A stretch of 34,620 nucleotides of DNA from a virus: positions 1 to 34,620 of IMG/VR virus record IMGVR_UViG_3300022748_000033, one strand, 5' to 3'. Both the position numbers and the translations under genes were made by a program. Below, piece after piece: positions 675-1,812 of this stretch (position 1 is the first letter of the stretch; the number at the start of each line of letters is the position of its first letter). The notes beneath the pieces were generated by a model that was not told the DNA's origin, did no database searches, and saw nothing but the letters and a program-made list of their open reading frames with translations.

Positions 675-839
675 ATGACAAAAGATCAACTAGTCCAACT
701 CGCTGGCTCACAAGCCAAACTCGCCAGGATTCTCAAAATCAGCCGTGCGGCTGTGAGCATCTGGAAACAGAAAATCCCCCCGCTCAGGATGTATCAACTC
801 AAAGAATTGAGACCCGAGTGGTTTAAGGCCAAAAATTGA
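675..839 (+). CDS. Cro-like repressor (YdaS/DicC-type HTH)
   Basis: This 54-residue DNA-binding protein has the single helix-turn-helix typical of Cro/YdaS repressors. A first helix with G-S-Q-A-K-L-A (residues 11-17) is followed by turn and recognition helix K-I-S-R-A-A-V-S-I-W (21-30), and then the I-P-P-L-R-M-Y segment (34-40) that ends these folds. It reads away from the leftward promoter and beside a palindrome it may bind, so it probably controls both divergent units. The ATG is preceded by CGGGG but no true Shine-Dalgarno. No partner CI-type repressor is seen nearby. The fold call is confident; the operator assignment is inference. Confidence 0.8.
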   Translation: MTKDQLVQLAGSQAKLARILKISRAAVSIWKQKIPPLRMYQLKELRPEWFKAKN

Positions 840-889
840 TGTATGATGCAAACCGTCTAGAGTGGCATCTAGGCGATGAAGTGACCAAT

Positions 890-1009
890 AAACCCCGCAG
901 GTTTCTGTGTGGTCTTGTCGTACGGCAAGCGAGTCTTTTGAGTCACTTCAATCGCTTCGCTGTTGCTCTCGCCAAGAGCCAAGACCACAGAGCGACTTGC
1001 GGGGTTTTT
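890..1009 (+). ncRNA. Candidate structured RNA: Y-shaped hairpin with terminal T-run
   Basis: Two perfect 10-bp helices (890-899 with 998-1007, and 908-917 with 980-989) are separated by an 8x8 internal loop. They enclose a junction with two arms: AAGCGA/TCGCTT (927-932, 952-957), continued by TTGA/TCAA, and GCTCT/AGAGC (965-969, 975-979). The basal stem is GC-rich and runs into TTTTTGCTTTT, like an intrinsic terminator on the plus strand. It follows the Cro-like gene by 50 nt. It could be a small RNA that ends itself, or an attenuator for the rightward operon. All pairings were read by eye; no known RNA family was recognised. Confidence 0.5.
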
Positions 1010-1056
1010 GCTTTTGGACAGCGCAATGCGGTACGTCGATGGTTGCGTTTGAGATA

Positions 1057-1085
1057 CCCCGATACACGTGCAAGCCAAATCGGGG
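1057..1085. other. GC-rich hairpin in the noncoding early region
   Basis: CCCCGAT (1057-1063) pairs perfectly with ATCGGGG (1079-1085) around a 15-nt loop. It lies between the Y-shaped structure and the replication genes, in a stretch (840-1247) where I find no convincing gene. No T-run follows, so it is not a plain terminator. It may be part of a larger folded RNA or a protein-binding dyad. Confidence 0.4.
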
Positions 1086-1173
1086 AGCGTGGGCGAATTC
1101 CTAGAGCGCGGTGGTTGAAAACAGTCTGGGATAGTGCGATTGCGATGACATGGCTCCATACAAAAGGAACCGC

Positions 1174-1216
1174 AGCACAGAGCGAACCTTGATTTTGATC
1201 ACGGTAAGGCTGTGCT
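1174..1216. other. Hairpin just upstream of the 69-aa gene
   Basis: AGCACAG (1174-1180) pairs with CTGTGCT (1210-1216), and stacked inside it CCTT (1187-1190) pairs with AAGG (1206-1209), leaving a 6-nt bulge on the 5' side. It ends 31 nt before the ATG at 1248, a position where it could affect translation or mRNA stability. With it, most of the 400-nt gap between the Cro-like gene and 1248 is taken up by stems. Confidence 0.35.
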
Positions 1217-1247
1217 TTGCTCCAACATTCACCACCAAAAGGCATAT

Positions 1248-1457
1248 ATGAAATACCTGATCAACCTGAGGAAAGATAGTAGTAAGGCACATCTGTGGGA
1301 TGACGGTGACACATACTGCAAGATGTACAGCACGGGTGGGATGAGGAAAAAGAGATATCAGGTTCTTGAAGACAAAAACGACCGCGATGTCTGTGTGATG
1401 TGTCAGAACGTGTGGAACGAAATTCACGAATTCACAAAGGACGGGAATCATGTTTGA
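1248..1457 (+). CDS. Hypothetical 69-aa protein with CxxC motif
   Basis: The product has Cys24, then C-V-M-C at residues 49-52, and a basic middle (G-G-M-R-K-K-R-Y). The Cys pair with one further Cys suggests a small metal site, but a full zinc-finger set is not evident. The ATG at 1248 has AAAAGG 6 nt upstream; an upstream in-frame ATG at 1212 falls in the hairpin region and has no ribosome site. The stop overlaps the next gene by 8 nt. I do not know its function; its position next to a replication-type protein suggests an early role. Confidence 0.6.
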   Translation: MKYLINLRKDSSKAHLWDDGDTYCKMYSTGGMRKKRYQVLEDKNDRDVCVMCQNVWNEIHEFTKDGNHV

Positions 1458-1812
1458 GTCAGGCTTTGATCGATTTTGGAAGGCATACCCAACAAGCCCC
1501 CGCAAAGGAGCAAAGAAACAGTGTTTGCAGAAATGGGAGAAATACCTCTGCGAACACTGTGCTGATCAGATCATCAAGCACGTTGAGTGGATGAAAACGA
1601 CCGATCAATGGAGGAAAGACAACGGTGCGTTTATCCCCGCTCCCTTGGTCTACCTCAACCAACAACGCTGGGATGGCGCAGAAGTGCCTGAGATGCCTTC
1701 AAAAACCGCTGTTGACCCCGTACTCACCAGGATGGCTGAAGAACGCTCCAAAGCAGTTCCTATGCCCGATCACATCCGTGAGAAATTGGCCCAGATTCGG
1801 GGCAAATTGTGA
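1450..1812 (+). CDS. Phage replication protein-like (DnaT/O-type C-terminal domain)
   Basis: This 120-residue protein opens with the F-D-R-F-W-K-A-Y-P motif (residues 6-14), a Lys-rich segment, a W-E-K helix and a P-L-V-Y-L-N-Q-Q-R-W segment (66-75). That order matches the small domain at the C-terminus of many phage replication initiators and primosome-loading proteins. Here the domain stands alone with no DNA-binding N-terminus, so it may be a loader or accessory factor rather than an origin-binding initiator. It overlaps the 69-codon gene by 8 nt. No helicase or polymerase gene is seen in the genome, so host enzymes are probably recruited. The domain call is from recognised motifs. Confidence 0.65.
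   Translation: MFESGFDRFWKAYPTSPRKGAKKQCLQKWEKYLCEHCADQIIKHVEWMKTTDQWRKDNGAFIPAPLVYLNQQRWDGAEVPEMPSKTAVDPVLTRMAEERSKAVPMPDHIREKLAQIRGKL

Follow-up and report, generated by a model that had tools for sequence, protein, structure and literature searches.

Locus and predicted fold of the RNA

The DNA analysed here is a stretch of 34,620 nt from a lake/freshwater phage (IMGVR_UViG_3300022748_000033; hereafter the window). On its plus strand, directly 3' of a Cro-like gene, it carries the predicted RNA element which is the subject of this study. A palindrome, CTAGGGACTTTCCCTAG, which is possibly an operator, is located 5' of cro at positions 622-638. Downstream, a small ORF with a CxxC motif (1248-1457) and a replication-initiator-like gene are found. 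Alignment of the protein encoded by the latter to known initiators is limited to their C-terminal part, and judging from its sequence it may be a shortened form. The features of the locus are as follows:

675..839, plus strand: Cro-like regulator gene, outside the RNA (Pfam P22_Cro, 3.7e-11)
842..847, plus strand: -10-like box TATGAT of a predicted promoter; the window has no good -35 at the usual spacing
854..1015, plus strand: whole predicted small RNA, type A, approximately 162 nt (covariance model R1)
854..875, plus strand: P1 hairpin, CGTCTAGA-GTGGCA-TCTAGGCG (854-861 with 868-875); six of eight pairs changed on both sides, loop invariant in the alignment
877..885, plus strand: 5' strand of P2, a predicted pseudoknot with the partner 942-950; 8-12 bp in 131 of 133 sequences, 78 distinct helices
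890..917, plus strand: P3 and P4, 5' strand; 97.8% of the P3/P4 cells paired, eight pairs changed on both sides
923..962, plus strand: P5 hairpin (923-932 with 952-962); 93.7% of cells paired, four pairs changed on both sides
942..950, plus strand: 3' strand of P2, inside the P5 loop; 8-12 bp in 131 of 133 sequences
965..979, plus strand: P6 hairpin, GCTC-TCGCCAA-GAGC (965-968 with 976-979); its loop has GCCA (971-974), the complement of UGGC in the P1 loop (863-866)
980..1007, plus strand: P4 and P3, 3' strand, closing the RNA (fold and covariation)
1005..1015, plus strand: U-tract TTTTTGCTTTT, probable intrinsic termination site; nearly invariant in A1 (mean entropy 0.11 bits)
1016..1222, plus strand: second structured RNA block, module 2a, directly 3' of the U-tract (RNAalifold, 47 sequences)
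1450..1812, plus strand: replication-initiator-like gene, downstream, outside the RNA (phrog_9474, 1.4e-15)

A previous reading of the window from its sequence only had described two 10-bp helices around a junction with two hairpins, the stem running into T5 (1005-1009), and we found them as described. The outer helix is formed by AAACCCCGCA (890-899) and TGCGGGGTTT (998-1007), the inner helix by TGTGGTCTTG (908-917) and CAAGACCACA (980-989). In the comparison with dinucleotide-shuffled controls, which had been proposed as a check, the region 890-1009 folds far better than its shuffles, with a minimum free energy of -62.6 kcal/mol versus -33.96 +/- 3.51 (z = -8.16; none of the 200 shuffles was as good). 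The reverse strand of this region also folds (z = -5.9), which is expected since the region is largely self-complementary. Thus, the assignment of the strand needed other evidence.

In two respects the earlier description was incomplete. The extent of approximately 120 nt is correct for the part described, but the complete RNA comprises approximately 160 nt, its start being located about 36 nt further upstream, at the hairpin 854-875: in the A1 alignment (83 sequences), conservation extends from this 5' hairpin through the U-tract at 1005-1015. Similarly, the simple Y shape is right with respect to helices and junction, but the pseudoknot between 877-885 and 942-950 (P2), which is missed by nested folding, was overlooked. 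For P5, we used a register with more standard pairs than that given by RNAalifold. The covariance model R1 matches the window at 849-1026 with 196 bits, the window itself being among the sequences from which R1 was built. All parts by which type A is defined are present in the window, namely P1 to P6, the P2 pseudoknot (9 bp in the window) and the U-tract.

Covariation, strand and coding potential

The comparison set consisted of 134 distinct sequences from IMG/VR. Compensatory changes in homologues, the absence of which had been named in the sequence-only reading as a refutation, are abundant. Changes on both sides were counted in 26 pairs and 357 cells, and neither figure was reached in any of 500 shuffles, although the cell counts are inflated by shared ancestry and the cells are not independent events. 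RNAalifold alone gave double changes in 15 of 40 nested pairs. Over the whole structure 94.2% of the cells are paired, versus 36-46% when the partners are slid by one to three columns. For P2, partners were determined in each sequence separately without use of the alignment, and 8-12 contiguous pairs were found in 131 of 133 sequences, corresponding to 78 distinct helices; when partners were mixed across sequences as a control, mostly 4-6 bp were obtained. A single inherited change cannot explain this diversity of P2.

A further contact is probable between the loops of P1 (GUGGCA) and P6 (GCCA), which share four complementary bases in every A1 sequence. On its own, the invariance of this complement proves nothing. 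The sole variant among all sequences (L133), however, has both loops changed, with UGGU in one and ACCA in the other, and the type B RNAs described below have the same combination (P1 loop UGGU, P6 loop ACCA). Based on these sequences, the contact could be intra- or intermolecular.

At the level of nested pairs, 340 G.U pairs stand against seven A.C pairs, the latter corresponding to G.U on the opposite strand. The functional form is therefore RNA of the plus strand and not a DNA cruciform, and we regard it as virtually certain that the locus encodes a structured RNA of this strand. A DNA element, for example a hairpin replication origin acting as single-stranded or cruciform DNA, would be in keeping with the adjacent replication genes, but it is very improbable in view of the tolerance of G.U on one strand only and of the orientation of promoter and U-tract, which agrees with the G.U-tolerant strand.

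It had also been stated that no convincing gene covers the element. This conclusion holds, since many relatives have shifts or stops in the reading frame, but an ATG frame of 117 codons (839-1192), which overlaps the stop codon of cro, does span the element. A protein-coding gene with an incidental fold could account for the length of this open frame, for its start at the cro stop and for its preservation in many relatives. A protein search with the frame (P0001) even matched 80 IMG/VR contigs, but the matches are in different frames or contain stops, and P0001 was rejected as a conserved protein. The reading phase differs between the two ends of the element in 42 of the 134 sequences, 49 of 134 contain an in-frame stop, and variability is nearly flat with respect to codon position (0.105/0.136/0.150). 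Codon-level selection, which had been named as an observation against a structured RNA, is thus not seen in this frame. Further, neither a Pfam nor a PHROG match was found for it, and the compensatory pairs also argue against a gene. Judged by these comparisons, the frame is not protein-coding; the explanation as a gene is extremely improbable.

Transcription signals and the place between cro and the replication genes

A -10 motif with at least five of six matches precedes the P1 loop by 12-20 nt in 126 of 132 sequences, in comparison to two of 132 at a control position, and a -35 motif with at least four of six matches is present in 91 of 132. This strongly suggests that most relatives have an own sigma-70 promoter, from which an RNA starting at P1 would be transcribed. 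In the window, where the own -35 is poor, transcription from the cro side may be more important than the own promoter. At the 3' end, the terminator-like stem encloses a very large loop, unlike the standard short hairpin, and a stem with so large a loop is not covered by a simple terminator scan. Of the small regulatory RNA which had been considered in the earlier reading, the small-RNA part is likely, given the promoter at a fixed place in the relatives; the more general proposal of a structured phage RNA with an own terminator-like end is strongly supported by the compensatory changes and by the missing codon-level signal. We consider the existence of a discrete small RNA in most relatives to be likely, and in the window itself somewhat less so.

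Directly downstream, module 2a shows double changes in 13 of 38 pairs and a G.U to A.C ratio of 259 to 4 (RNAalifold, 47 sequences), while as a single sequence it folds no better than shuffles (z = +0.35). Among the relatives this slot is filled by at least four interchangeable, unrelated block types. Since the second RNA begins within approximately 10 nt of the U-tract and has no obvious promoter, either termination is incomplete or another transcript supplies the second RNA. Probably, some transcription passes the U-tract. A minority of phages have a relative of the CxxC ORF after the RNA block; one of them is a 52-kb phage with a type B RNA (L311). As a regulated gene, the small cysteine-containing ORF after module 2 was rejected, because among 234 copies of type A just 17 are followed by it.

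In 83 of 135 loci the RNA is preceded by a Cro-like homologue, in most cases immediately adjacent, and a homologue of the replication initiator is located downstream in 103 of 135, with a spacing of 108-748 nt in nearly all of the 103. This arrangement raises the possibility of a cis-acting leader or attenuator, which would end the early transcript after cro, while leaky or regulated read-through would set how strongly the second RNA and the replication genes are expressed. Such an element is our main rival explanation, which we nevertheless regard as unlikely. Its position between the Cro-like and the replication genes in most relatives and the stem plus U-tract fit well, and its best argument is the second RNA directly after the U-tract, which makes some read-through likely. 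However, by inspection we found no mutually exclusive antiterminator pairing, the relatives have an own promoter, the type B and C copies adjoin different genes (primase, other ORFs), and the distance to the replication gene is as variable as given above.

The early-operon place after cro and the compact RNA fold are also reminiscent of processive antitermination. The put RNA of phage HK022, an early-operon RNA near cro, is an antiterminator with two simple hairpins. A put-like element would act on the RNA polymerase transcribing it, and a terminator-like U-tract at its own end speaks against this role. The type A RNA shares with put the early-operon place near cro but differs in its U-tract end and its pseudoknot, and from what the sequences reveal a role in antitermination appears quite improbable.

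Related RNAs and proposed role

Among loci which were fetched by the replication protein and are devoid of type A, another RNA is often present in the same place; the others contain coding sequence. Two such RNAs, types B and C, are unrelated to type A in sequence and likewise combine a promoter, a long-range variable pairing and a U-tract at similar places. Type B (40 distinct sequences) follows the order of type A, with P1, P2 (short and variable), P6, a closing stem and a U-tract, and a -10 box is present in 39 of 40. Its P2 mostly comprises 6-7 bp, for which the cross-pairing control is weak, since the compared stretches share conserved flanks. Some type B copies, in larger phages, are flanked by a primase-like gene on the upstream side and a RuvC-like gene on the downstream side. 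In type C (105 analysed) the loop of a 5' hairpin forms a variable contact of 7-10 bp with a central loop, in 25 distinct forms; here the cross-pairing control is soft because one form is common. A -10 box was found in 59 of 101 type C sequences, and the U-run is plain in those printed. No fetched stretch carries two types. With R1, type B reaches a score of only 21 bits, and the three types may be homologous or convergent. The B and C RNAs (type B at L237, L240 and L299-L348; type C at L269, L390 and L452, among others) appear as promoter-driven RNAs with a pseudoknot or kissing loop, many of them in or near replication regions, and have no Rfam match. In named phages no match was obtained with a single query each for types B and C, and L399, seemingly derived from an isolate, was discarded as a chance match of the type C pattern.

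The slot of the second RNA is filled at two of these loci, just downstream of the type B or C RNA, by the Betaproteobacteria-1 RNA (RF02932; L306, 10563-10680, and L390, 8239-8356). RF02932 is also present in the Acidovorax phage AP1 (host Paracidovorax oryzae) and in a spring-water phage. Its occurrence next to type B and C RNAs and in AP1 suggests betaproteobacterial hosts. All of these matches are located in phage replication regions, among them those at L476:2893-3016 and L477:3902-4019, and in the spring-water phage five tRNA genes (L477:3152-3633) lie between a primase-like gene and the Betaproteobacteria-1 RNA.

No Rfam 15 family matched the window above the gathering cut-off, and with E up to 10 in the region 600-1500 only sub-threshold matches were obtained; the RF02932 model, also with E up to 10, had no match in the window. 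Type A was not found in named phages and plasmids. A pattern scan of GTDB yielded 14 matches, which are devoid of the other features of the RNA and were read as chance. In 398 genomes of one phylum R1 gave only two weak matches (28-29 bits), and RF02932 had no match in 369 genomes. Type A is absent from Rfam 15 and, apart from a possible unnamed entry in catalogues of candidate structured RNAs, undescribed.

Several known RNAs resemble it in part. The pRNA of phage phi29 is a small phage RNA in which a Y-shaped junction is combined with 4-nt loops complementary to each other. Type A has both a Y-junction and such loops, but there is no link in sequence or gene context, its loop contact could form within one molecule, and the phage of the window has an ordinary terminase and a P22-like portal (Pfam). 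The type III antitoxin RNAs ToxI and CptI are small, pseudoknotted and linked to a terminator, and consist of repeats upstream of a toxin gene. Type A is likewise a small pseudoknotted RNA with a terminator-like end; no direct repeats were found in the region 600-1500, and no toxin family in the adjacent and downstream genes tested. GOLLD and ROOL, which are encoded by phages, are structured RNAs containing pseudoknots and kissing loops, and their function is unknown (PMC12286853). They form multimeric cages and are much larger (GOLLD often more than 800 nt) than type A with its approximately 160 nt. The Betaproteobacteria-1 RNA is also a structured RNA of phage replication regions and occupies the adjacent slot at L306 and L390, but its sequence and model differ from those of the RNA in the window. 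These ornate RNAs of phages (GOLLD, ROOL) and the Betaproteobacteria-1 RNA are closest in kind to type A, which is a member of neither.

What could such an RNA do? The parts of type A differ strongly in their variability. The mean column entropy is 1.48 bits for P2, 0.5-0.6 bits for P1, P3 and P5, and 0.08 and 0.02 bits for P4 and the P6 stem, respectively, the invariance of the last two being partly selected, because the retrieval patterns demanded parts of P4/P6; the P1 loop also has 0.08 bits or less. Of 40 loci fetched via the replication protein instead of the RNA, 39 have an intact P4. Type A contains no long, conserved single-stranded seed. Antisense action via P2 was considered and rejected, since P2 8-mers show no excess in the remainder of the same phage DNA (44 versus 39.6 +/- 5.8). 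Thus, with fixed helices, a fixed contact and no conserved single-stranded seed, recognition of the shape by a protein is favoured over antisense pairing.

We propose that type A is a noncoding phage RNA of approximately 160 nt, which would be transcribed rightward as a discrete molecule and released at its own stem and U-tract. Its 5' end would be locked in P1/P2 and its 3' end in P3, and early in infection it may be produced as a stable particle resistant to nucleases. P2 would serve as a structural strut, the sequence of which may drift provided that pairing is kept. Most likely the RNA would act in trans by presenting its shape to a host or phage protein, because the invariant parts are helices and the loop contact (P4, P6, P1 loop) and not a seed. 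Taken together, a discrete, stable, trans-acting and probably protein-binding RNA is the explanation that we favour with some confidence, mainly on account of its structural and transcript parts; for trans action and protein binding taken alone, the sequences leave the chances slightly short of even.

By analogy with the ornate RNAs and pRNA, it is tempting to go further and to imagine the fast-changing P2 and the loop contacts as a private recognition code, by which copies of the RNA would pair into homo-oligomers and which every phage lineage would diversify against mixing with the RNAs of co-infecting phages; the slot beside the replication genes would then take one of the interchangeable knotted RNAs A, B or C. 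This idea is improbable. The locus adds a widespread set of small pseudoknotted RNAs, located between early regulation and replication genes, to those of lake phages. That RNAs with a similar plan but unrelated sequences are present in this neighbourhood suggests that selection for such an RNA is strong here, and precise compensatory mutants for tests of function can be derived from the alignment.

The one locus fetched via the replication protein in which P4 is not intact (L219, 2501-2702, type D) is matched by R1 with 58 bits. It has a different P4 and the same GUGGCA and GCCA loops, and is a bridge toward more distant relatives. A possible P2 in this RNA is formed by GCCAAGAG and CTCTTGGC.
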